Shown here piece by piece: positions 1-18,806 of a DNA stretch of 64,000 nt. The stretch lies in NCBI GenBank assembly GCA_025617375.2, contig JAMYGW020000005.1:1302001-1366000 (forward strand), read 5' to 3'. The position numbers and the translations under genes were made by a program. The notes beneath the pieces were generated by a model that was given only the letters and a program-made list of their open reading frames with translations, was not told where the DNA came from and did not search any database. The DNA is from Acarospora socialis (Eukaryota > Ascomycota > Lecanoromycetes > Acarosporales > Acarosporaceae). Numbering within the stretch: position 1 is the first letter of the stretch; every line of letters begins with the position of its first letter.

Positions 1-2470
1 ATTATTACAAAGATATTTAGATACTTGTGAAGTATCTCATGAATGTATGACTGAAAGATTGTTGATGCATTGATTAACTTAAAGAGTATCATTAAGTACT
101 TATACAGTTCATATTAAGTATAAAAGACTGTCTTTCATTTGTTATCTTTGCAGATGCAAATTCAGTAGTAAACATTCTTTATATCAATCTTTGTGAAGAT
201 CTTGATTTCATTTACTCAATTCATGATTTTCTCAATTAAGAGTAAAAAATAACAATTCTTCACAGTAACTGCATTGAGTTTGCAGTAATCAACACATAGT
301 TGCAGCTTATCATCAAACTTAAGTGCAAATAGCACTGATGTTCTCACAGAAGACTGTGAGAACTGAATAAAATCATTTTTTAAATTTTCATTCAGATATC
401 TTCAAAACTCTGTGAACTTCTTTTCTGAGAGATTATAGATAGAATTGAAGAGTAAAGTTCATTCATTAATTAAGTTAATAACATAATTCTGCTCACAGTG
501 CAGAGACAAGTTATTAACTTTGTTTTTTAAAAACATTTCTGCAAGATCACAGTACAGTTTTGAAATTTTTATTTGAGTTATATCACTCTGATTTTTCACA
601 TACTCTATGCAGACTTGATATATCTGACTTAAATCTTCAAACTTTAACTTCTTTCTGAAAACTTTGAGATCTAATTCATCATTATTCTCTGACTTTACAG
701 AGTCTTTTATATTTTCTTTTCAAATGAAAATTCACTGAAAATAACTTATTACTGAATTTCTTCAGATCAGTCAGATCACTTTAAGTATTATATTAGATTT
801 TATCTCTGCAGTGATAAGAGATTTGTGATGTTTACAAGTCTTCTTATTATTATTGTGAATGAAGATCTGTTCATGATACATATTATATGTAATCATCAAT
901 TATTGATTAATATCAACAGCATCTCTTGCAGAAAACAGAAATACTAAATTTAAAATTATAACTATATTTAGATGCAGAAAGTTGATATCATTTTTGCTGT
1001 TCATTATTGTTCATAGTTTCTGCTTCACAAGATATATTATAATTTATAGAGCTTTCTTCTTGAAAAGATTCAACTGAGAGAATTCATACATCTTATATAT
1101 GATTTCTTTCTTAAAAGACTCTGTCTTCACAGACTTTTTCTTTGTCTTTTCAATGATATTATTCTTCTTTGAGAATTATATACTCTGTGAAAGCTTCACA
1201 AGCTTTTTTTGTTTACAGCATCTATAAAAATCTTATTTTTCTTGATGCTTCAGCAATCTTTTGTGAGATGATCAATCTTGTTACAATTGAAGCACTTAAT
1301 AGATTGATTTCTATTATTCTGAGAAGCTTTTTTCTCAAATCTTGTTGTAGACTTATTGTTAATCTTTTAAAAAGACTTGAACTTCTTTTGATAGAATGAT
1401 GCTCTTTTTTGCTTACAAAAAAATAAATTGAACTGTAATTTCTTCACAAGAACTATCATGTTCTTTTTGATATTAGACAGTTCTGATTATTCACAAATTT
1501 TTTTGTGCATGAGTTTGTTCAGATCACAATAAAAGAGTATGATTTGAATTTTGTTCATCTTGTTTACTTTGCTTTTTATCTGAAATTGAAGTTCATTATA
1601 ACAATGAAGATATTTCTCATCTGACTTTTTATCTCTTTTACTTGCTCACAATCACTTTATTCAGATATTATGAGTTTGATTTGTTTTATCTTTTAACAAG
1701 TTCTTCAAGAATTTTTTCAAGAATTTTCATTCTTCTGTGAGCTCTTTCTCTTCATAATATGTCTTTTATTGATTCATAATGAAGTAGTGTAGATAATAAA
1801 TCATCTCTGAATACTGAGTCTTCTTTAATATGTTCTCTGTATCAATATTTATCTGATGACAAAAATTACAATAATAACTGTAAATACTGTTCTTATAGAG
1901 ATCTGCATCTGAGAATATCTTTATGAATTAAGTTCATATAACTTCACAATTTATCTCTAGATCTGCAGATTCAGAGTAATTATATTTAATTTGTGTGCAG
2001 AGTTGCAGATTTGTATGTTCTTGCTCTGCAAACTGAATTCTTAACTTTAATTTATAAATTGCAGCATTTTCTGAGAACTTTCTGAATTTTGATGTCTTCA
2101 TGAAAGTGTTTACTATCTCACAAAGAAATTCTTTGCTCTTTCACAAAGTGTATCTGATCTTGTGAACAACTTCTTCAGATTTGTGAACTTACTTGTTAAT
2201 CTTGTGAAATATGATTTGTGTTTCATGAACTTCAAGTTCATTTTTTTTTTCTTTTTCATCATCATTTGACACTCACAGTATAAAGTTCTCATCACTTTCA
2301 AGTTTATCAGTAATCAATTCATGAACATCTTCAGTGAAATCACTCACAAAGACTTCAAACTTCTTTAGATGCTCAGATTTCTCTTGCATTACAGAATTCT
2401 TTGATTTCACTTCTTTCACTTGCATGATTCTTTCTGCTCTCTGTGAGAATTGTTTTGATTTTGAAATCAT
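1..2470 (-). mobile_element. Relict Ty3/gypsy-type LTR retroelement, gag and partial pol, broken
   Basis: On the minus strand, 1294-1253 encodes a gag-type zinc knuckle with C-X2-C-X4-H-X4-C spacing. Further along the same strand, about 430-180, lies a stretch matching the start of a Ty3/gypsy reverse transcriptase domain, including a recognisable LCVDY and LNAVTVKN segment. The order, capsid-like frames at about 2470-1300, then zinc knuckle, then reverse transcriptase, is that of gag-pol. The element runs off the left edge of the window and no LTR was identified. It is heavily decayed with many breaks, has the same dinucleotide depletion as its surroundings, and is a fossil. The right limit is approximate. 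Confidence 0.75.
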
Positions 2471-3777
2471 TGTTGAATAACTGTTTTATGATAAATTGAA
2501 GCAACAATACTGTGAGACTGATCTTAACAGTTATGTGATAATGAACTTTAAGAGTTGAAATGCATAGATAGAATTGTTGCTAGTCTTTGCAAAAGAAAAA
2601 GTGTGCACTTTTATTTCTTTGTAAAGACTGACTTACTAAGCATACTAGCTACATAAGATCTTGCAAAAGAGCTCTAGCTCTCTGCAAATCAGAGTGAGCT
2701 TATAACAAATACTGTTTTCATGATTGTGACATTATTAATTTTCATTTTTCTGTCATCATTGATTTAAATGCTCTTTCTCTCAATTATACAACTTAAAATT
2801 CTCTCTTCAGACATGAAGAAGATGTTTAATAAGTTGCAAATCACTGTGTACTTTAAGCAACTTATGCTGTTGAAAGTCAAAGAACTTATGCAGACACAAC
2901 AGCTCTGAGTAATTGTATAATTTCTTTATCAGTATTTATCAACAGTCAAACTTTCAAACATCACACAATCATCACTCTTGCATGACAAAAGTTCTCATGA
3001 ACTTCTGATGATGAAAAGAAATTAAGAAAGTTTGAACTATATAGTGATTTGAATTTTAACATCATTGCAATTTGTACAAACTTTTTCTAACTTAAATTGT
3101 TTGATATTGTACAGAACAATGCTGTACATTTTTGTTGAATGATCATTTCATTGATGATCTGTTATCTTTCATACAAAGTGACATTTTTTCAAAAATCAAA
3201 TGTTCTTCAGTCATACAACATTCTCACAATTTCTTCTGTCTTACAGTTGCATAAAATATTAAGACAGATCTGAAACATATTGAGAACAAAGCAGTCATGA
3301 AGATTTTGAATGTCTTGACTCTATTGAGAGATTATTGCATTAAAACAAATTATATATATGAGTTGTGATTGATTGCTCTTGTAAAAAATGAGTCATATAA
3401 TTTGAAAGAGATCAAGACAAAGAAAATCAATAAAAATACAAAGATAAAGATCAAGAAAAAAGAACAGAAAAAGAAGTCTTTTTAAAGAATTAAATTGAAT
3501 ATTACTTAATTATTCAACTCATTTTGCATAAGTAGAATGATCATCAAATCAAACTAATTCTAACTCAACTCAACCTGATTCTGACTCAATTCACAAGTTA
3601 AATCAGAAATCTTGACTCATAAGTCAGATCAGAGTCAGTCTGATTGCTTTGATCTGATTTACAGATCAATTTGAATCAATTATGTGACACATACTTTGTG
3701 TACATTTGTCATATATGACTTATAAAATCTCATAGAGCATCATGTTCAGTATATGATATTTTATATGCTATGTAGAG
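2471..3777. other. AT-rich stretch without recognisable gene
   Basis: I see no gene here. Around 3410-3490 a lysine-rich coding-like stretch on the plus strand could be the tail of an old transposase or other element protein, but no diagnostic motif is visible. It may include the terminal repeat of the neighbouring retroelement, which I could not delimit. Confidence 0.5.
3541..3685. repeat. Quasi-palindromic repeat (copy 1)
   Basis: The stretch is built of repeated GACTCA and GATCTGA words in both orientations and forms an imperfect inverted repeat: about 3611-3640 against about 3648-3675. A related arrangement occurs at 15497-15590 and a weaker one near 9205-9250. These could be ends of a decayed DNA transposon or MITE-like element; no target-site duplication could be defined. 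Confidence 0.45.
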
Positions 3778-5990
3778 CACATTTCTAACAATTATTTCTA
3801 ACAATCAAACATGATAACATGATAAGTTGATAACTCTACTACTAGCTTAGACTATTTTATCATTTCACATCTTGCATCAATTCAAAAGATGTCAAACAAT
3901 CATAAAATTTCTGCACAAAAGTCATATTCTTTGTTTGAATAATAACTCACTTAATGTGTATAACACAGAAATTTATGTCTATCAATTGAATCAGAAGACT
4001 GATCATCAAGAAAACTTAATAGTAAAGTTTTATCTTCAAGATAAGTCATCAAAAAGATCTCAGCAGTCTTCTGTAAAGCTTATATGACATTTTTTTGTCA
4101 GTAAACATGATCAAGACATATTTAACTGTCATTTATACAGATTGTTCTGATCAATTGAGTGAAAAATTAGCTTGAAATCAACAGATCTGTGAACTTCTAA
4201 TAGTAACATATTTCTTGTAGAGCAGTCTCTGTGTGTAAGTGTGTTAGAACTGAGCATTAAAATATTAAAGTGATCATACTTACTACTTGACTTTGCATAT
4301 CTCTTTTGTCTAATCATTGTGTTCAAGTGAATTGAAAAAAATGAGAAGTCATCTTCTCAATTTGTACTGTGTAATGAAGAAGACTGAGAAATGCATATTA
4401 CTGCATTTCAGACAGCAAAACATATCAGTATTTCAGTCAACAGACAATTCATCTTCTGTTGCAATTCAAATATTATTTAATTTCTTGCAAATCTTCAGAC
4501 ACTATACTCTATTATTTTATGTTTCATAAACATTCTATATTCATCAAATATTGTGCAACAACTCATAAAATGTCAACAGAGAAGAAACATCAAATCAAGA
4601 AGATCAAATCAATATTTTTAACACATTTTTTTAACAAACTTCAAGTTAATTCTTCACTTTCAGAAAGAGAATGATGAGAATGACAACATTGCAAACTGAA
4701 TTTGAAAATGAAGAGAAAAAGAAAAACATGAAATTGATACACTCAAGAAATCTAATCAAGGAATAGAATCTGACTTCAATACATCTCATAAATCAGAAAA
4801 TAATTATTTAAAACACTGCAGTACAGAATCAGATCACATTTGATGCAAAAATTTGTTCTCTATGTTCAAACATTATGATTAAGCTCTCAGACACAATCAA
4901 AATGCAAAGTTTTATGTTTTTGAGAAGTTCAGAAAGAACAAAGAGTATATTAATGCTGATGAGAATATCAGAGTGCAGATGAAGACTGATGTCATTGAAG
5001 ATCTTAAGAAGTGACAATATTGAGTGAAATAAAGTAATATAATTTCATTATTTCATGCACAACATGCACTGATGAAGTTAGCTGCATAACTTGAGAAAGA
5101 AATTCAACATATTAAACATAAAATTCAACTCAAAGCAGAGCTCAAAGATCTGAAGAATGAGAAGAAAGATTTTGAGATTGTCACAATGAACAAAGACATC
5201 AAGTCAAAGAAGAAGATCTTATCTTCAGATATAAGTAGCAGAGCATTATAATAAAACAATATATTAAAACAACACATTAAAACTAATATATACTTATAGA
5301 TTCATTCACAGCTTGATGATCTGATGAATTGAAATCTTGATTTGATCATTTATTGATGAAAAAGAATTGAGTATCTAGTGAGTCAACAAAGTCTTGAGAT
5401 TGTGAATAACTTTAATTCTCAAGCTCATATGAAACAATTTTGACAGCAGATCATGAATTCAGAAAATATCAAAAACATAAATATTGAGTGAGTATTCTAA
5501 CAGAACATTCTAATAAGCATAAACACTTATTGTCTTGCTCAGCTATACTATTTCAGCTTTAGTTATCACTAAGAATCTGATTAAACAAAACTCTGATTAT
5601 GATCTTAAAACTGTAAAGAGTATTTAAATTTATTTATCAAAGAATGAAGTGAACAATGAAGTTCTAGACAGTGAAAAGAATAATAACTGAATTGTGAATT
5701 TAAACAAGAAAAAAAAGAAGAAGATTGAGCATTCAGATGATCTGTCTTTGTACTTGTTTGATGAAGATGATGATGAGAATTGTGAATTTGATGAAGATGA
5801 TGATGAGAGTTGTGAATTCAATAAAGATGATGATGAGAATCATGATGACAATGATGAAAAAAATAATGTTAATCAAGCTGATAAAAAAAATCAAGATTGT
5901 GTTACAGAGAATGATAAGAAACATATTAAGCTTAATGAACATTACAGATCAGTATTTTTCTCTGTAAGTTCAGTGAACTCTTTTTTTTAA
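3778..5990 (+). repeat. Diverged dispersed repeat, copy A
   Basis: Several blocks recur in the same order in copy B (about 6290-9181). About 3955-4100 matches 6365-6510 (both contain an ATAACACAGAAATT word); about 4190-4320 matches 6595-6720; about 5260-5510 matches 8180-8430 (both contain GAATTCAGAAAATATCA). The copies differ by many substitutions and length changes. They encode broken frames, some acidic and some lysine-rich, with no recognisable transposase, polymerase or capsid motif. The family is not identified. Confidence 0.5.
5761..5850 (+). repeat. Three 30-bp tandem units coding an acidic D/E repeat
   Basis: Units 5761-5790, 5791-5820 and 5821-5850 are near-identical, with period exactly 30 bp. 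On the plus strand they code an acidic decapeptide-like repeat of the form DEDDDE plus NCEF, inside a 98-residue frame (5694-5990, from a non-ATG codon). Period 30 keeps frame. It lies inside repeat copy A and is probably part of that element's decayed gene. Confidence 0.7.
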
Positions 5991-6289
5991 TATGTTATTC
6001 TAATACTTTGTGTATTTTTCAGCTGTTTAAAAGATCAAGAAAGCAGAAGTTGTTAATGTTAATTTCAATGAATTGAAAATGAAAAGATTAAATGCTGATA
6101 GACTCAGTCTGCTTATTAGTGTTTACAATTTCTTTAGATTTTCAAGATAAACTTATTACTTTGTTGTGATAAAAGCATACTATATAATATTTGATGCTGA
6201 TCTCAAAGTCATCTCTTATTTGCAAATTACAAGTTTGACTACATCACATATTTTAATCTAGTGTGTAAACTCAAGTGATGTAATGTCAT

Positions 6290-9181
6290 AAGACAAGAGT
6301 CACTTGTAAAATCACTCAATCAAGATCATATCTTTGACTTAAATCATAACACACTTGACATGAATAACACAGAAATTGATGTCTAGTAATCATTAGAATC
6401 TTGTATTGAAGAAGTTTCAAATAATCATACTATATCTTTCAAATATATCATCAAGAATTTCTTCACAGTCTTTTGCAACACTTATAAAACACTTGTCTGT
6501 CAACAAACATCTGAAATCTGTAACTTCTCATTGAAGAGACAAATTCACTGAGTAACTCTTGAGAAAAAAAGTTTTAATATCAACAAATTGACATTCTTCT
6601 AATATCATTGAATCTCTTTTAGAGTAGTCATTAATCAAGAGTGCATTAAATAAAACTGTTAGAATTGAAGAATATTATAAAGTAATACATACTGTCTGAC
6701 TTAGCACATCTTTTAATGATCATCTTTGCAGACTGTTGTGCTGATTGTTTTGATGACTGCTTTTTTTTTTGAGACATAGTTGATAAAGTGTTCACTAATT
6801 GTAGATTGAATGCAGTCTGAAAATTTGCTATTTGCAAATCTACAGTGATCTGAGTGTTTGTTATATTCAATGCAGTAAATTTATTCTTTGTGACTGTCTT
6901 GAACTTAAGTGCAGAATTGAACTTGAACTTGAACACAGACTTAAATTTAATGAGTATTTTCTTCTTCTTTCTCTTTAGCTTTCTAAATGTCATCATTCTA
7001 GATGTTGACTGTTAAAACTGTATATTAGATTCAAAACATTTTGAACTCATATTTGTTGCTTGATGTGTCAGTGTATTATAGTATTGTGATTTGTGATGTA
7101 GCAATGTTCTTGATGTGAAGTTGAGATCATGTTGTTTTGTTTAACATTTACATTAACACACTGAGTGAATTTGATCAAAACAAACAAATATTGTAGTCAA
7201 ACAACAGTACATACATGCATCTTTCACAATGATTCATCTTTTAAACAACAAACTCTTCAACAAATCAACATCTTTTCTCAGCACAACAAAAAACATCTAA
7301 TACAAGAACTTATGCATTAGAACAGAGCATTAGATTCAAGATGAGTAAGAAGAGAGTTAAGACAACTGAAACTGCAGATAAGTTAAGCAAAAAGTCATCA
7401 TTGCTTTTTACTTCTGTTAATAAATCAAAACATAATCAATCAATCACTGATCAGATTCTACAGCAGAAACATTTGATAAAGAAAAAACTTAGACTGAAGA
7501 AGTAACTGATATTATAATACTTTTTATACTCATAGTTTTTAACATGTTTTTCTAATGTTCTTCAACATGTTACTGACTGATATGTTGTATAGTCAGTTAA
7601 AGATTTTAATGCTGTAATAACAGCAATCAGAATCTTGCAGAAATGTAAAGATCAATTATTTACATTAAGAATGTCAGAATGAAACATTGAATTTGATGTA
7701 GAATCAGTGTGTAAAAAGAAGTAAAACTATTTTCAATACTTATGCACTGTTGCTGCATACATCTATTGAAAGAATCTTTCTTTTAGATCTCAAGCTATTG
7801 AACAAGCAAGAAGATATGATCACAACATTAAGCATCACAAAATACTGAAACTGAGAAGATTGACAGAATAACTTAAAGCAGATTAAAATAAATGTGAAAC
7901 ACTAAAAACAGATGCAGTAAAGACTCTAATAAAGTTCTGTTTCTGTAAAGAACAGAGTGATATGATAATTAGTTATTTAGTTAAATATTATTAACAGTTA
8001 ACAGCAAAATGACTTGAAGAACAGATGAATCACATTGAAAATGAAAACAAAGTACAACAGAAACTTACTGATGCACTTCATGTTAAAGAAGACTTAAAAA
8101 TTACAGAAAAAATAAAGACAGAGCAGATACAGAAGATTGATGTGTCTGAAGAGATAAATAGTTGATGATGTCTGTTAAAATTAAACATTAAAACTAACTG
8201 ATATATGTAGATTCATCTTCAGATTGATTAAGCTGCAGTATGAAATCTTAATCTTTTCATTTGATGCTGAAAGAAAATTGAGTTCATAACTGAACAACAA
8301 AATCTTGAACTAGCTGAGAATTCTGATTCTTAAGTAAGTATGTAAGAATTTTGACAGTAGATTGTGAATTCAGAAAATATCAGAAATATGAAAGTAAAGT
8401 AAGTAATTTAATGATATATTCTAACAACATAAAGTACTTATTACTACACATAACTATGTCATTTCTGTCATCACTATCTTTACTGTTCTTAAAGATGTCT
8501 GAACTGTAAATATAATAACTTTTAGCAGTATAGAGTAAGTCATGACTGAAAATGTAACAATTTGTTTGTCTGAAGATGAAAGTGAGAAGTTGTTCAGCAT
8601 TGAAGAATTGAATAACTTTATAATCAATAATATGAAAAAAGAGTCTCTGAGTGCTGCTGAGCTCTTTAATGATTCATCACTAAATTTTAAAGTTGAAAGT
8701 AATGAAAAGAACAATATCAGTGAGAAGAATGACACAGATAATGACTCAATGCAAGTAAGATGTTTTTCATTGCAAATGTGTTTTGATCATTTATTGATAT
8801 TGACAACAGAAAAAGAATGTGAAATGATTCTAATGTATAAATTTAACATATGTACATCTTAACTTACTGTTTTCATTCTGTCATAATATGATGCTTAGTG
8901 TTCTACAATGAGTCAATAGCATCAGCTAAGTGAGAAGACTATGTCAATAACAACATTACTGCTCTAATTATTGAACTTTCTTTTCTTCTTAAAGTGTAAA
9001 CTTGAGCAATACATTACTTACACAATGCTGCACTTCAGTACTGAGTTTTCATTCTACAAGATTCATCATGTATATTAATGAGAGAAATTTGAATGCATTG
9101 ATCAAGAATAAATTCAAAGATGACATGAGTTTAACATGAATTCATGATTACATCACATGCATTAGAAATAATTGTTAAAAT
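6290..9181 (+). repeat. Diverged dispersed repeat, copy B
   Basis: This is the second copy of the repeat described for 3778-5990, in the same orientation. It ends near a 23-bp terminal motif at 9159-9181 that recurs inverted at 12232-12254. A frame at 8542-8862 codes a moderately acidic peptide that resembles, by eye, the reverse-strand frame at 12672-12409 (both open with an S-D/E-D-E run and share an LLN/LNN segment). This suggests a third, inverted copy beyond 12254. Confidence 0.5.
9159..9181 (+). repeat. Left arm of 23-bp inverted repeat
   Basis: The sequence begins GCATTAGAAATAATTG and continues to 9181. Its reverse complement is found exactly at 12232-12254, and a diverged relative in that same reverse orientation lies at 3778-3800. 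A 23-bp perfect match in such a mutated block is notable. Confidence 0.7.
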
Positions 9182-12100
9182 TCTGCTCACAAACAAGATC
9201 ATTTTCTGACTCATAACTCATCAGAGTCATTATCTTTGTCTGATTCACTTCAAAAGTTATGTTGCATTGCTTCAAGTTCTTGAGATATTGTTGTTAATTC
9301 AATCAGACTGAGCAGCTGATCTCACAATATATTCAGTGTTAATGAGTATGTTTGAAGAAGAGCAGATCTTTATAATGATTTAAGAAATAATTGATTTGCA
9401 AATGCTGAAACAGTAGTGATAGAATTTGAAGTAGTGAATTGAGTAACATTTGTGACTGTTGTGATGACAGAAAGTTTGATGTTGATTGATTAAACAGTTG
9501 ATGATGACTGCATGATGATGACATTAATGTCTGTATTGAACAAATCATCATTCTTTAAGTCAAAGCTCATTTTAATGTCTTTTTCTAACACTTTATGCAT
9601 CTTCTTCTCATAAAAATTGCTCAAACACTCATCAGATGCATCATCATTATCTGAGATGATAATGATAAATAGACAATTTCTATTTTTTAACAGTTTGTCA
9701 GCTGATGACACTTTAAAATCAAAATTATGAGCAGTATCAATCTTAATGATTGTGTCTGAGTTAACTGCATACTCATATGAGTGAAAGTCATGATGCTTGA
9801 TAAGCATAATATGCTGAATTGTCTCAACATTGAGTTAATTTTGTCAGTAATGACATACATTGCAAATCATGTTGAAAAGACACTCAACACTCACTCTCAC
9901 AACAGATATAGCAAGTACATCTTTGACAAATTGAGTCATAACAAATTTAATCTTTTCTCATAATTTTCACTTATCTAAAATGTTAAGATCTTTCATAAAT
10001 GCAGTTTACAGTTATGTTGTGACTTTAGATGCAGTTGTTTTCAATATTTTCTCATTGAACTGCTGTTGTAGCTAAATAATAGCTTTAAGATTAAAATGTA
10101 CAGTCTTGACTGTCAGAACATTTGAATGTGCAGTTGATCAAATTTTAAGTTGTTGATAATATCTTTTGTAATATGATCTGAACTTACACTCATAGTATTT
10201 TTGATGTTCTGATTTTCATGCTGAATTCTTAATGTTGAAGTGCTGTTAGCAGCTGAGCATTAAATTAAAGCATTAGAAAGAAGCTACACATCTGATAAAT
10301 ACTGAGTTTGATGCTTGAATTCAAAACACTGTCAAGATTATATAATGTGTTTTGTTTATCAGTAATCTTGTTGTAATACTGAGAAAGCTTGTTCTTGACA
10401 TTTCTGATTGCATCACTTAATTGAGATGTGAATGATAATTTATAAATACTCACTTTCATTCACTGATCTTCAAGATGATCAAATAAGTCATTGTAGACAT
10501 ATTATGCTTTATTGATGATTGATTCAGCAGTAAAATCAAGTATATTAATTAAAGTCTTGAATGATTTTAGAAGCTTGACAATATATTTAATCTGTTTTCA
10601 TTTTTTATAAAAAATCTTCAGCATACTCATTGATTCACTTTGAGCAGAAGTTCATTCTTTAAGCTCATTTTTATATTCAAGTGTTCACATTAACATATCA
10701 TGAATTGAGTTTCAGTGTGTCTTGACATCTTAAATCATTTCAACAGCTTTGACAAAAGTCACATTTTATAATCATTTGAACTGCTTAAGTCTCTGAGAAA
10801 TACAATTGATGATAATAGCAAGTGTTTGAATCTGTGATAATTTGATTCAGCATATTAAATATTTTTGTTAAAATAGAATGTATCTTTTTCAGTGTGTTAT
10901 CAAACAATATAGAATTCACTGATATGATAGTGAGAATTGTAAAGTCAAAAGTTTCAGTGATTTTCTTGTTGAATATCTCTGCTTTGAGTTTCTCAAGCAG
11001 CTTGTTCATTGTTAATTGAATGATGTGTATTATACAATTCATCATGTTTTTCTGATAGTCTCAATTTACATCTTATTATTTCAGTAGTTTACTAAGATGT
11101 TTGTGAAGAGTCTGATTATTGTATGCATTGTTTGCTGTAACAGCAAAAAGTTTTGTCTTCAGCTTTCATGACTCAAGAACATTAATTACATAGTTAGTTA
11201 AATTTTCATCAGTATGTGCTTTTTCTAGTTCTTTGAAGTCAAGAAAAACTTCACAATAATTTCAGTTTTCATTGATGAAATAATCAGTAATTCTCATAAA
11301 AACAAGATTATTTGAACTGATTCAACAGTTCAAAGCTATGAAAACTTTAATCTGAGATTCAAGTTTTTCAAGAGTGAATATATGCACTTTCTCATATCAT
11401 TTCTTCAAAAGATTTTCAATCTTTGTGCAATCTAAAATCTTTGTATCTAAACAAAGCATCTTAATAAGTCTTTTGAAGTGAGAATGTTTTACTGATTAAA
11501 AAGATCAGTTGAGTACAAAAATGATTATAAGTAGTTGCTGCTTGAATGCTTCAGCTGTGAATGATGACATTTTTATAGAGACTATGACAGAGTTTTAGTG
11601 ACATGAGTATTAGAAATCAGTGTTAAAAAGATAAAGTAATTGACTGATCTATTTATCAAATGCTGAAACTAGATCATTTTATTGTTTATCTTGCAACTGT
11701 CACACACTTTGACATGTTTTACAATTTAGATGTCTTTTCATCAAATTAGTTTCTTCATTTGTCATAGTAAAATATATAATCAAAATCTCACATCTTTTGC
11801 AGAACATCTTAAGTTCTTCATTAATGACAGAGATAATCAATTCAAAGATGAATCATACTCTGAAGATTTGTACAGTGTTATTTCACAGAAGTAATTTCTT
11901 TTGATTGATTTCAGATAGATGCTTGACAGTTCAGCATGTTGTTTTTCATTAGTCTTGAAATTCTTCACTGACATCTAAGTCATAACATAAGAACTCTGCT
12001 TTTGAAGATTGAATCAGACATGTAAGTGAAGTTGTTGTACAAGAAAGTTGAGTGATACTGTTGTGTATGAAATTTCAGCTTTCATTGAGCTCATTGAGTT

Positions 12101-12231
12101 GCTGACTTAATTCAGTCTCTTCTTCATATAATATTAAGTTCTGTGAAGTCATAATTTCTTAAAATGTAAATAGAGATATCACAAAATGATTATTCAATCA
12201 GATTATCATATAATCTGATCAGATTGATAGC
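9182..12231. other. 3.05-kb segment between the inverted 23-bp repeats
   Basis: The segment is AT-rich, with short frames mainly on the minus strand (for example 10265-10459 and 10785-11045). These code asparagine/isoleucine-rich, probably helical peptides with no recognised domain. It may be the body of an element whose ends are the inverted repeats, or simply the spacer between two oppositely oriented repeat copies. Confidence 0.4.
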
Positions 12232-12254
12232 ATTTTAACAATTATTTCTAATGC
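12232..12254 (-). repeat. Right arm of 23-bp inverted repeat
   Basis: This is the exact reverse complement of 9159-9181. The sequence just beyond it (12255-12300) resembles 3801-3845, so the motif marks a recurrent boundary in this repeat family. Confidence 0.7.
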
Positions 12255-12408
12255 TACAAACATTAAATTAATCAAGTTGATTACAGTATTACTGATCAAT
12301 GAAATGTAACATTTTATTGAACTGACTCTTCAAGTCAATTATTAGTTCTCTTTTGCATGATCATCAATGTCAGTTTCTTTCATCTTCTCATTTTCACACT
12401 CTCTTTAA

Positions 12409-12672
12409 CTAAATTTTAATCTCAATCTTTTTGTTTGCTTTCTCATTCACATCATTGTTAACAACTTCATCTTTATTGAGATTATTTTTCTGATATTTAT
12501 TTTCACTGCTAAAACTTAAAATTGAAAAATACAATACTTTAATCTCAGAAGTATCTGTCAAAGACTTAACAAGAAGATTGTTCAATAAGATTGTACTGTC
12601 AAACTGCTCATCATCACTTAACTTTACATAAATCTGAGATTCTGCAACAACACTCTTTCTTTTTTTATTCAC
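12409..12672 (-). pseudogene. Relict acidic/lysine-rich frame of the repeat family
   Basis: This 87-codon frame opens with a basic stretch and then an acidic S-D-D-E segment. It resembles the plus-strand frame at 8542-8862. I do not recognise the protein. It is treated as a remnant of the dispersed repeat because it lies in the mutated block and has the same dinucleotide depletion. Confidence 0.35.
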
Positions 12673-15600
12673 TTATTTTACAGCAGATGACAGAACATAA
12701 CTATAAATATGTCAATTTTGTTGACACTGAGATCTGATGCATTAGAAAAATGTATTAAAATAATATGATATGTGTCTGATTCTTACTCATGCTCTTCATA
12801 CTCAATATGCTTAGAATTCTCAATCTGCAATCAAAATCTTCTCATTATCTTCTTTGAATTCTTATCTTCAACTATCTTCAAGAGCTTTTCTCTGCACAAA
12901 TTGATTATGTACTTTTGATGCTTAATAATTACTGTAAGATTATTAATTTATATCTTTTCAAATTTGCTTATAATGTCTTCAGATTCAATTTGCAACAATA
13001 TATTAATTTAAGTGAAGTAAGAATCAGCATTGAAACAACTTTGCTGAATTCTTCAATTATTCATTTAACATAGACTTTCTTGAACAGAATCACACAATCT
13101 TCTTTTTTTTGAACTTCAGCTTGTCTCTGCAATTGATGCACTTTAATTTTGATTTGATTGATGAGAAATTTCTCTATAAGCAGATCAGAACATGAGCATT
13201 AAAACTAACTGTTAGAATTCAGAAACATTTATTGAAAATGTTAAGATTATAGTGTTCAGCTTTCAATGCATTGATAGTATTATCTTTTAAGATTTTTTGC
13301 TGAGTCTTTGTTGTCAATTTTCAGTTCTTTGACACACACAATTTCTTCAAAGTTACATACTTTGCATTTTGATCTGCTGCATCTGCATATTCAATTTGTC
13401 TTGTTATAAAATCATTGAGTAATGTCTATTGTCACTCTCTGATCTGAGTTGTTGCAGAATTTGTATTATATTCAGATGATGTTTTACTTAAAGCAAAACT
13501 TAAATTCATCAATGAACAATCTTTTGTCTCAGTAATACAGCAATTTCTCAATCATTCTTCAATCAATGAGAAATCTTCAGCTTCAGAAAATGATGATGAT
13601 GTGAAGTCTTTTTTAACTCATTGTTGCTTCTTCTTTGTCAAGAATTTGAAACTGATGTACTTTCATTTTGTCTGTTTAAATTGACAGATCTTTGACAGTA
13701 AATTATGAGAGTTCTATGTTTCATTCATTAATATATTAATTGAGCTGACATTAGATTATTGTGTTAGAACACATCTTTGCATCATTCTCTCTTATATCAT
13801 TGTCATTCACATCACTTTTATAAGAAAACAACTCAGTTTAGCAGCTATCAGTATTTCAACATCAACTCAGTTCTAAAACAATGCATTAAAATATATATTT
13901 GCATCACTGTTCTTCTCAACATTATTGTTCTGATTATCTTTCTTTTCAATAGTATTTTTTTTAACATTATTTTCTTTATCATCATCTTTCTCAGAATCAT
14001 TCTCAACAACATCATTCAGAACAACAACAGTTTTTGTATTTAATTTCATTACAGTATTCTTGAGAGACAACTCAGATTATAACAATAATCAGTATATCAT
14101 TCTTTGAGTGTTAGAACAAAACATTAAAATATACAACTGTATTGCTTTCTGAATTGTCTACTTCATCAAGAAAATTATTGTGTTTTAATTGATCAGATAT
14201 GAAAATCTTGAAGTGTAGCTGTGTATCAAGCATCTTGATTCTTGTCAGCACTAAGATCATTGTTAAAATTAACTGTTAAATTACACACTACTTGCATGTC
14301 TGACTTCATGATGTTGTCACTGTTGATTGAGACTGATATGAATTGCAAAAGTGAAAAAATAATATGTAAAAGAAGCTGAGAGAAAAGAAATGAGTGATGA
14401 GATGAATGAACTGTTGTTGTTGTTTAATATTCACTGATCACATCTCAGATGTAAACATAACAGCATAATAAAGTAATCATAATCATACAATTACAATCAC
14501 AATCAAAACAGACAGTATTCTACAACATTGTCATCAACATTATATCTACAATCAGCTCTATGAGATTCTCATTTAACTCATTTTAAAGTAAGTGAGCAAT
14601 CACTTATTTTAATGTTCAGTTTTAACAATCATATAGTTTTGTGAGATGACACAGATAAAAATCACATTCAAATTTATTAAAACATTAAAAAAATCATCTA
14701 TCATCTCAGTTCAGAAGAAGTCAAAATAAGTTTAATATATTAAGAAATTTATCAAATACAACAATGAGATCAAAGCATACAATAAATGCAAGAAACAAAT
14801 CAAAATAAAGAAGAAAAAGTTTCAGAAGTCTTTTCTGATCAAATTAACTTCTGTTGTGAAGTCAGAAGATATGTTATAGTTTATTTTTAATTTAACACTC
14901 AAATTTAACACTTAAAATTCAGAGTGCATCATGTATGAGATTAAATGCTATTAAAAGTTCACAGCATCATTGATTTTCACACATTTTTTTCAAAAACTCA
15001 TCAAGAAAATTGAACAGAACTATGAACAGAACTATAAATGACAGCAAGATGCAGTTAATGCATTGTAAGAGACTGCTGAGATCTATATTGTTATGTTTTT
15101 TGAGAGTATGCAATCAAGATTCTGTATATTGAACAGTTCAAATCTCAGTTAATCTCAACTTTAGATATCAATTTGATCTGTATTCATGTCAATCACATTA
15201 CAATACAGACAAAGAATATGAAATTGATCAAGACATATATGATTAAGTGAAGTATCTTTGTTGAACAACACTCAGTTTTGCAACAGTGATGCTATTAGTA
15301 AATTTTCTGTAGCTAAATAATGAAGATTATGTGAACTCTTCTTCTAAGACTTTTTTTAATGTGTTTTTTTAATGTGTTTCTTTAACAATTATAATTGTAT
15401 GCACAACTATGACTAAGATGATGTAGAGAGTTAGTAATTAGTCAGTTAATGAGTATGAAACTAGTGCAGAGTCATCAAGAAAAACTTAAATTAACTTTGA
15501 TCTGACTTGCAGATCAGATTGAGTCAAAAATTTAAAACTGACTTGATCTGTGAGTCAGATCAGATCAAAGATTTTTGGTTTGATCTGACTTAATGATCAC

Positions 15601-16720
15601 TCTATGCATAAGTCATACAATTTTATTTTTAAAATTCTTTATTAATCTCTATATCAGAAAGATACATTATTCAAAGATTAATCAACAATTTTAAAAGACT
15701 TTACTGCTACAGAATTTGATGTTTTTTCAGATGATAGTTTGTTGATGCATTGTATGAGAATTGATAATCACAAAAAATAACTTGTATACTTATATTGAGA
15801 GATATATAGAATACTTGTGCTAAAAACATACACTGTTGTCATCATTGACTGTGCAGACTGATTAGTTGATTAAGTTAATTACAATCAACTTAATTTACTC
15901 ATATAATTCAGATTCTGATATTAGAACTAATTAAAACAATGAAAGTAGTTAAAATACTGTACTTCTTGACAGCTTGTTATCTTGATGTATTAATACATAT
16001 TTATTTTTTATTTAAAATATTTAATTAATGTTCAAGTTGTACAATCTGAACATATTTAAATCATTTACTTCTTTTGCTTCTTTTTCTTCTTCTTTTTTCT
16101 GATCTTGTTAGTCTTAATATTTACATTGTGATCACATCTGATCATGTGATTATATCAATGATAATTGTTGCAAATATTTTGAAAATTCTCTGATATAGAA
16201 ATACATTTTTATACATCATTAGTATTGTATGACTTGAATTTCAGAAAATAATACTTGAAATAAATCATTCTCTCTATTACATCTGACACATTTTTTTTTA
16301 TTTTCTTTCTCATTAAAAAAATGTCAATAGTGTGTAATGTTGTATATTACTGTAGATTGTATGAATCAGAACTGTATAATAATCACTTTAATATATAAAG
16401 TTCACTGCAGCATGCTGATTATGATGTGATTCTTTTCAATTATATTTTAATTTTCATCTCATCTTCTCACTTCTTCAGAATCTGTATCTGAACATTATTG
16501 AATTAAAATTCACTATCATATATTTTTGTACAATCAGTTTCTCAAATCAGTCTTTATATTAAAAAGTATCTATTCTGTCTTTCTGTGCTTGTGTTATATC
16601 ATTGATGACTGAGATGAAGATGATCATTGTTGTAATTGATGAGTTTGTTTGTACAATGATGAGAATGTTGATTATCTATTTATAGATCATGATTTCTCTA
16701 CTACAATCTATGACTATGTG
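12673..16720. other. AT-rich stretch, no gene recognised
   Basis: There are only short low-complexity frames on both strands, for example 13777-14043 (hydrophobic, isoleucine-rich) with 13873-14070 opposite it (asparagine/lysine/aspartate-rich). Words such as CATTAAAACTAACTG recur at several places (around 8190 and 13200), which again points to decayed copies of one repeat family. No tRNA, rRNA or gene is visible. Confidence 0.5.
15481..15600. repeat. Quasi-palindromic repeat (copy 2)
   Basis: The arm at about 15497-15519 (TTTGATCTGACTTGCAGATC) pairs imperfectly with about 15541-15568. A further copy of the word follows at 15578-15590. It is related to the structure at 3541-3685. The only GG dinucleotide noticed in this part of the block lies just beside it, at 15577. 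Confidence 0.5.
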
Positions 16721-17551
16721 TTGTTAATGGTGAATATTCATTAACACTTTGCAAAAATTTGAAAAAAATTTGATGTGTCAATAACCTCATTATTGTCCAC
16801 TGTATGCACTCCTGACTGATGGCCTTTTTGTAGCAGAGATCTCTCAGAAGTTGTGCATAAGAATGGTCAAGAGAAACTGACCAATCACAGTGCAGATACA
16901 ACCTGACACACCCACCCAGAGTGACTGAGGATTAAAAATGAGGTAGTGTTGAACTTGAAACAATCAGTTCAATTTCTATTGATCCTATCGAGTTGCTAGC
17001 TATCTGCAGAATCTGCAGGAAATCAAGGAAATAACAGGACTAGGGCCAAGGAATACTCACTAAGCAGCTGAGTGCAATTAATGCTCAACTTTGATAGTAT
17101 GTAGTCACATAAGTGGTTGTGGTTTTTCGTAATTCATGTTGGGTAATATATTTTGTATTTTTGAAAAATTGTAATATACTTTTGGAGATCTCCGTGTGCC
17201 AAGATTTTGCGGCTGAAATTTTTCAGACATTGATATTTATGAATCTCATACAAAACACACTGTTTCTGATAGCTGTCAGTGTGAGAATCAATTATACTCA
17301 GTTAGAACTATTACATCCTGAAGTTGCAGCTCAAAATCTACATGTGTGGTTGTGATTCTATGCTGGGAGGTCATATCTGGAAAAAAGTTGTGAGGGGCCT
17401 GCCCGCAAGATTTCCGCACGTATTAACGTATAGCACTGTATCTCGAACATATCGGAACTGAGCTGGCGGATCTATGTAGATACAACTACAGGATAGTTCT
17501 CAATGATCTCAATTGCGTGTTGAAATTCCTCTTCTTCCCTCTTTCCACATC
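16721..17551. other. Transition from AT-rich block to normal DNA; upstream region of the M20 gene
   Basis: GG and CC reappear from about 16729 and CG from about 16989, so the change happens within a few hundred bases. G+C rises gradually through 17400. Open frames here (16701-16901 minus, 17113-17355 plus) lack domains and typical codon use, and I do not call them genes. The last part must hold the promoter and 5' UTR of the peptidase gene that starts at 17552. Confidence 0.6.
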
Positions 17552-18806
17552 ATGAAGTTGCTTCCCGTTGCCTGCGCCGCTGCCCTACTCTCCGCCGCCC
17601 ACGCGAGCGTCCTACCGTCTCCCGTCAATGGGCAGCGACCACTCCAACATGACGAAGAAACAAACACCAAATCCTCGCCTTTACTCGACCTTCATCGCGA
17701 CCTCATCAAGATCGAATCCATCAGCGGCAACGAATATGCCGTTGGCCAATTCCTCCACGAATATTTATCATCCCACAACTTCACCGTCGAGCTCCAGACC
17801 GTCAGCCCCATCGGCGCCCAAATCCCCACAGCTTTCGGCCCGCTGACGACAAAGCATGAACGACACAACATCCTCGCCTACCGCGGCGAAAAGCGCAAGA
17901 CGCGCACCCTGCTGAGCAGCCACATGGACACGGTGCCGCCCTTCTACGACTACGACGTGAAACCGCACCACACGATCTGGGGGCGGGGCAGCGTTGATGA
18001 CAAGGGCTGCGTGGCGACGCAGATCATCGCGCTGCAGGAATTACTCGACAGTCAAGAGGTCGGGGACGGCGACGTGGGTTTGATGTTTGTTGTCGGCGAG
18101 GAGATTGGCGGTGATGGCATGGTGAAAGCCAACGACTTCGACCTCGAGTGGGAGACGGTCATATTTGGCGAGCCGACAGAATTGAAGCTCGCGTCGGGAC
18201 ATAAGGGAAATATCGGGTTTAATATTAAGGCGAAAGGCAAGGCGGCACATAGCGGATACCCGTGGTTGGGCGTGAACGCGAACTCGTTGCTCATTCCAGC
18301 ATTGGCTAAGTTGGATAATTTGGAGCTGCCGACGTCGAAGAAGTATGGGAACACGACGGTCAATATTGGGCGCATGGAGGGCGGTGTTGCGGGGAATGTT
18401 GTGGCGGAGACGGCGTCGGCGCAGATACAGATCCGGATTGCGGCTGGCTCGGCTGAGGACGTGAAGAAGATCGTGCTTGACGCTGTCAAGTCTGTGGACG
18501 AAGACTTGGAGGTGGAGTGGTTGAACAAAGGCTATGGGCCTGTGCCTATCGATACCGACGTCGATGGTCAGTCGATGAGACGCATTATGACCATTGTCAG
18601 TTGCTAATAACTCCGCAGGCTTTGGGGAGATCGTGGTGAACTACGGGACCGATATCCCTAATCTGAAGGGCGATCATAAGCGGTATTTGTATGGTCCCGG
18701 CAGCATCCTCGTCGCCCATTCCGATCACGAGGAGGTATCCGCCAGCGATTTGAAGAAGGCGGTGGAGGGGTACAAGACGTTGATCAGAGCATCACTCAAG
18801 AAATAG
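17552..18806 (+). CDS. Secreted M20 family zinc metallopeptidase (probable carboxypeptidase)
   Basis: Two exons, 17552-18566 and 18619-18806, are joined across a 52-nt intron (GTCAGT donor, CTAATAAC branch, CAG acceptor; phase 1) to give 400 residues. The first in-frame ATG is at 17552 and begins a signal peptide (MKLLPVACAAALLSAAHA). The M20 metal centre is visible: H124-x-D126, D149/D150 in GRGSVDDKG, the E183-E184 pair in GEEIGGDG, E207 in FGEPTE, and a late His in VAHSDHEE. The 200-310 region looks like the dimerisation domain. Related fungal proteins remove C-terminal residues from peptides or hydrolyse dipeptides outside the cell or in vacuoles; the substrate here is unknown. It is the first gene next to the AT-rich block and its own composition is normal. 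Confidence 0.9.

Follow-up and report, generated by a model that had tools for sequence, protein, structure and literature searches.

A 16.7-kb block almost without CpG, CpC and GpG

What process could strip part of a fungal chromosome of every CpG and almost every CpC and GpG, and leave CpA and CpT common? The question is raised by a 64,000-nucleotide stretch of the ascomycete Acarospora socialis (assembly GCA_025617375.2, contig JAMYGW020000005.1, positions 1,302,001 to 1,366,000; hereafter the window, with positions counted from its first letter), the first 16.7 kb of which had been described, from the letters alone, as having near-total absence of CG, CC and GG. Our answer, to which we give a probability of roughly 70%, is that a repeat-derived block was hypermutated on both strands by a process resembling repeat-induced point mutation (RIP) but aimed at cytosines that precede C or G (hereafter CpS, as opposed to CpW for those that precede A or T), likely through a RID/Masc1- or DIM-2/Masc2-type methyltransferase.

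We counted dinucleotides in positions 1-16700 and, for comparison, in the flank at 17500-64000, with expectations taken from base composition. The block (27.7% GC) contained 0 CG (319.6 expected), 1 CC (324.8 expected) and 2 GG (314.6 expected), while the dinucleotide GC was at expectation (331 vs 319.6), and the near-absence was therefore as described. The isolated exceptions that the original prediction placed near 3575, 4760 and 15577 were a CC at 3574, a GG at 4760 and a GG at 15577, all within 1 bp. CA/TG and CT/AG, said to have stayed common, were in fact all enriched, with observed-to-expected ratios of 1.58 for CA, 1.54 for TG, 1.20 for CT and 1.22 for AG; TC (1.38) and GA (1.43) were enriched above CT and AG, and TA was low (0.62). 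The flank was normal, with 52.1% GC and ratios of 0.91 for CG, 0.94 for CC and 0.92 for GG. Mononucleotide shuffling of the block (200 replicates) never gave fewer than 286 CG or 573 CC+GG; CG, CC and GG were all missing from 164 of 167 100-bp segments of the block vs 0 of 464 in the flank; and runs of C and G in the block never exceeded two bases, 331 of the 334 runs of two being GC. The depletion is real and far from chance.

The purged core, depleted on both strands to the same 0 CG, 1 CC and 2 GG at a GC content of ~28%, extends from 1 to 16728 and continues past the left edge of the window, making 16.7 kb a minimum length. The first CC or GG beyond it starts at 16729 and the first CG only at 16989. 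Positions 16729-17400 form a shoulder of intermediate GC content (~37%) in which CpG is lost and CpC/GpG are kept: the CpG ratio was 0.174, vs a minimum of 0.607 among 460 sliding 670-bp windows of 17401-64000, and the CC+GG ratio was 0.87 (4 CG vs 22.8 expected and 41 CC+GG vs 47.5 expected, summed over three sub-windows). CpG was normal again from ~17401 (8 CG vs 7.3 expected in 17401-17560). Two zones can accordingly be told apart: in the core both CpC and CpG are gone, in the shoulder only CpG. They are seen at the one edge that lies in the window and so as a single case; loss confined to CpG does not describe the core, where CpC is equally lost, and holds only in the shoulder. The shoulder separates the core from the first intact gene, which encodes an M20 peptidase, and possibly arose as a CpG mark spread into the sequence upstream of that gene.

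Mutation rules compared by composition

We simulated mutation rules on the flank sequence and compared the products with the block. Conversion at CpS with all targets marked at once gave a GC fraction of 0.271 (0.277 observed) and an L1 dinucleotide distance of 0.090, the smallest of the rules. The distance was at best 0.391 for a CpG-only rule, 0.347 for a CpC-only rule, and 0.211 for random drift toward AT, modelled as dilution to the same GC content; all three were rejected. The original prediction, that C changed to T wherever it preceded C or G, to completion and on both strands, was thus borne out to the extent that the CpS rule came closest in composition. When the ancestors were left freer, the CpS rule reached a trinucleotide distance of 0.083, close to the 0.078 by which the two halves of the block differ from each other. 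Sequential CpS conversion from a 52% GC ancestor fit less well (0.282), and it fit as well once the ancestor was given a lower GC content or some CpA/CpT was lost too. We had taken the good fit of simultaneous marking as a sign of methylation followed by deamination, but dropped this reading since sequential models fit equally. When the flank served as ancestor, sequential fits were best at losses of 15-30% of CpA and 30% of CpT, and marked fits at losses of none to 15% of CpA/CpT; a CpA loss of at least 45% fit clearly worse (0.233 vs 0.099).

These simulations also bear on a different cytidine deaminase as the agent, for example one acting on the second C of CC. Loss of CC occurs in some deaminase signatures, but in the block CG is lost as completely as CC, and the enrichment is stronger for TC and GA than for CT and AG. 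A rule targeting C preceded by C, plus CpG, gave at best 0.207, and one targeting both Cs of CC, plus CpG, gave 0.126, both worse fits than CpS. The base 3' of the C matters, and we regard such a deaminase as very unlikely.

Repeat relics within the block

We scanned all six frames of 1-17000 against Pfam, and the three plus-strand frames of 2701-16700 against PDB; of these three frames one matched histones only and the other two had no match at E 0.05. On the minus strand at 27-437, a translation read through stops was recognized by phmmer as a Ty3/gypsy reverse transcriptase (Ty3 reverse transcriptase 4ol8, E=2e-15; Ty3 Gag-Pol 7q5b, E=1.1e-14), and one substrate element is therefore of the Ty3 type by read-through translation, with no Pfam RVT family in the same frame at E≤0.05. 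The element is cut by the edge of the window, and long terminal repeats and an integrase were not seen. A CCHC zinc-knuckle-like stretch on the minus strand at 1253-1300 is a weak match taken alone (Pfam zf-CCHC, E=0.03, 14.9 bits, under the curated cut-off of 20.8); its position beside the reverse transcriptase relic supports its being probably the gag of the same element. A single scan of IMG/VR with the gypsy read-through as the only query gave no match.

Three further relics have a histone fold and are repeats of one another. Relic A (3882-4305, minus strand) is CENP-A-like, its best PDB matches being CENP-A chimeras (E=7.2e-08), as is relic B (6286-6714, minus strand; best PDB match CENP-A 6muo, E=8.6e-06; Pfam Histone E=0.036, under the cut-off). 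Relic C (14836-15259, plus strand) is H3-like, with matches to Pfam Histone (E=2.7e-10, 41 bits vs a cut-off of 26.4) and to H3.3 in PDB (4h9s, E=2.3e-09). By eye, loop 1 is longer in A and B, and the copies may share an intron position; at the position aligned to the Trp of the CENP-A 'WQ', both A and B carry TGA. Multiple copies of CENP-A-like genes are unexpected, and the histone-like relics may be part of some mobile or amplified element.

A second internal repeat, X, has copies at 4724-5622 and 7647-8537 that are 60% identical over 923 aligned columns, the translated match being wider (4529-6241 vs 7434-9212). Histone relics A and B lie next to the two copies, an arrangement suggestive of a duplicated unit made up of a histone-like gene plus X. 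A self-comparison of translated frames gave many weak matches from which X and the histone repeats stood out; we took the others as composition effects. The X copies differ by 139 transitions and 208 transversions (in a slightly wider alignment), and two other comparisons of repeat copies gave 70 transitions with 105 transversions and 57 with 101. Repeat copies within the window are thus ~60-72% identical with transversions exceeding transitions, and so their divergence is not mainly due to RIP.

The relics also speak to whether the block is an artefact or foreign AT-rich DNA, produced by misassembly, by reads from bisulfite-treated DNA or by an organelle-like insertion. Its composition is indeed unlike that of the flank. 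However, bisulfite conversion is excluded by the C that remains in CA and CT (14% of bases), and homopolymer compression by the abundance of AA and TT; moreover, the block adjoins a graded shoulder followed by a normal gene and carries recognizable relics of nuclear genes. We give this explanation almost no credence.

Codons of the relics

Aligned with Ty3 reverse transcriptase and H3, the relics differ at 131 of 195 positions. Changes at CpS could produce 37 of these mismatches (13.9 by shuffling), and C-to-T changes in any context could produce 50 (18.2 by shuffling). In the histone relics, the reference arginine was kept at only 2 of 21 positions, and the reference proline had become TTT in 3 of 3 cases, which also needs a change at CpT. 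Glutamine was kept as CAA/CAG at 7 of 13 positions and had become TAA/TAG at 5 of 13. One frame open but for TGA ran for 261 codons with 9 TGA and no TAA/TAG, vs 0.027 such runs expected from the composition of the block. CpA and CpT were hence also mutated, well below the rate at CpS, where loss is complete. The claim that CpA and CpT had been spared therefore stood as a matter of counts and went too far as a matter of history, some loss of both being visible in the codons.

Several results weigh against a mutator specific for CpS. In a strict form of the codon test, restricted to changes with their context wholly within the codon, the CpS-only class was in excess (17 vs a null of 6.6), but the CpW-only class showed a like excess (15 vs 5.3), as did CpA changes without CpS (4 vs 0.5). 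Since the CpW excess matches that of CpS, the codon test supports general C-to-T decay and not a CpS preference, and, as it did not separate the contexts, it failed as a stand-alone proof of CpS specificity; that preference rests on composition. Five of the 15 CpW-only changes were R-to-K, which ordinary protein divergence favours and which the shuffling null ignores. Composition in turn does not fix the ancestor, as ancestors of ~36-56% GC fit when the assumptions about double hits are varied. We found no unmutated copy, and the C-to-T change is thus deduced from the block itself and not from an alignment. Finally, the internal repeats (60-72% alike) are under the 80% identity over 400 bp that N. 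crassa RIP requires (PMC3017866). It follows either that closer copies exist elsewhere or that the process acts on already silent chromatin or independently of homology.

Is the process classical RIP?

Relics of fungal repeats are the usual targets of RIP, and some CpA has been lost (the 4 strict changes vs 0.5 expected, and the 5 of 13 glutamine codons now TAA/TAG); classical CpA-directed RIP followed by other changes would account for both. The counts already contradict it, however. The indices TA/AT (0.67) and (CA+TG)/(AC+GT) (1.62) both run counter to what classical RIP would leave, as do the enrichment of CA and TG and the low TA. Simulated CpA conversion was a very poor fit (0.655, vs 0.090 for CpS), and models with heavy CpA loss fit clearly worse than the best. 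The original prediction that the pattern is unlike classical CpA RIP therefore held, and we consider that process extremely improbable here. With published thresholds for RIP-positive sequence of TpA/ApT >1.15 and (CpA+TpG)/(ApC+GpT) ≤0.75 (PMC7882544), the standard indices score the block as unaffected by RIP.

Like the products of N. crassa RIP, which depends on a RID (or DIM-2) methyltransferase and operates premeiotically in the sexual cycle, the block is AT-rich and repeat-derived, has apparent C:G-to-T:A changes on both strands and stops within its reading frames, and ends sharply against genes. The contexts, however, run in nearly the reverse order: N. crassa RIP follows CpA>CpT>CpG>CpC (PMC5496416), whereas here change at CpC and CpG is complete and change at CpA and CpT minor. 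CpA is thus not the preferred target that it is in Neurospora-type RIP (CA ratio 1.58, TA/AT 0.67). RIP-like in action and location and unlike RIP in context, the process is probably a variant and not the Neurospora type.

Other fungal systems come closer on CpG. Trichoderma reesei resembles the block in that experimental crosses show CpG among its main targets, but it uses CpA about equally with CpG, and CpC least (PMC5496416). Uncinocarpus reesii is described as favouring CG over CA (PMC4165359), and Tuber melanosporum and Microbotryum violaceum show CpG mutation with or without CpA (PMC4352252); these resemble the block in losing CpG from repeats and differ in that CpC loss is not reported in the portions compared, whereas here CpC is lost as fully. 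A ten-genome comparison gave CpA, CpT and CpG signatures (PMC4352252). CpC is listed as a possible class by RIPCAL (PMC2621366), and CpC-to-TpT double mutations occur beside classical CpA RIP in Monilinia (PMC8959702). We found no report of CpC and CpG as the main RIP targets in the literature compared, which did not cover Clutterbuck 2011 and does not establish absence from print.

Timing and the favoured explanation

About half of A:T-to-G:C transitions would create a new CpG, CpC or GpG; the presence of only 3 CpS in the block therefore implies ~6 surviving A:T-to-G:C changes among 12,077 A/T sites. As the repeat copies differ by hundreds of substitutions, so few survivors mean that the purge came after, or during, the divergence of the repeats. 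The purge is recent or still going on.

This bears on the possibility that there was no active RIP, and that heterochromatin long methylated at CpG and CpC lost all such sites by spontaneous deamination of 5-methylcytosine. The CpG-only shoulder beside the core resembles a spreading CpG mark. A chromatin-based process is also favoured by the internal repeats, which have diverged too far to trigger one another, and deamination of methylated CpG has been put forward as a source of fungal CpG signatures (PMC4352252). Decay of CpG methylcytosine of the vertebrate type explains a loss of CpG accompanied by more TG and CA, the pattern of the shoulder, but it does not account for the loss of CpC and leaves a residue, whereas none is left here. 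Slow decay should leave more sites in progress, yet completion is extreme (0 of ~320 CG and 3 of ~640 CC+GG left, with the ~6 surviving changes given above), and dense CpC methylation is not reported in the passages compared. We consider slow decay unlikely, though far from negligible.

Under active CpS-directed hypermutation, which we prefer, the substrate would be repeat-derived DNA of a fungal chromosome, made up of a gypsy element, histone-like genes present as duplicates, and further internal repeats. A RID/Masc1 or DIM-2/Masc2-type DNA methyltransferase with a CpS target preference would most likely mark the cytosines, which would then be deaminated, so that C before C or G would become T on both strands until none remained, CpA and CpT being mutated at a clearly lower rate; the process would be repeated or very recent. 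What the sequence shows directly is the depletion with its products, carried to completion on both strands, together with the repeats and the CpG-only shoulder. That the changes were C:G-to-T:A on both strands, and took place in this genome, is inferred from the loss of both CC and GG with enrichment of their products and from the excess of relic codons reachable by C-to-T and G-to-A changes; the enzyme and its time of action in the life cycle are likewise our inference.

Beyond this, we suggest tentatively, as a possibility that falls slightly short of even, that the mutator is a mirror image of Neurospora RIP, acting always on CpC and CpG and rarely on CpA and CpT, perhaps in two tiers with a CpS core plus a spreading CpG-only process that leaves the shoulder upstream of the neighbouring gene. 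If true, this would mean that target choice by RID/DIM-2/Masc enzymes can invert between fungi and that CpA-based indices miss such genomes. A survey of 1,239 fungi concluded that a preference for CpA is common to RIP-like defences (PMC12543289), a statement to which complete CpS loss across a genome would be an exception. Such a genome would be a natural experiment on target choice by DNA methyltransferases, and setting its RID/DIM-2 genes against their counterparts in CpA-type fungi would allow the determinant of RIP context to be tested directly.

Other features of the window

No tRNA or Rfam family was found in the window, and no DNA methylase domain was found in the 10 flank ORFs (open reading frames) scanned. 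Within the block, a tandem array at 5757-5840 has 2.8 copies of a 30-bp unit with 90% matches and, by eye, encodes an acidic repeat in one plus-strand frame. The M20 peptidase gene beyond the shoulder (17513-18607, plus strand) is an intact-looking, unmutated ORF (Pfam M20_dimer, E=6e-22; Peptidase_M20, E=4.8e-15), and positions 17561-18000 have a GC fraction of 0.593 with 46 CG vs 35.7 expected. A Pfam family was assigned to 8 of the 10 flank ORFs; the flank, apparently that of a filamentous ascomycete, encodes eukaryotic genes, including those for Utp13, a protein kinase, and RING and UBP zinc-finger proteins, and uninterrupted ORFs of 873, 930 and 1144 residues are present in the window.

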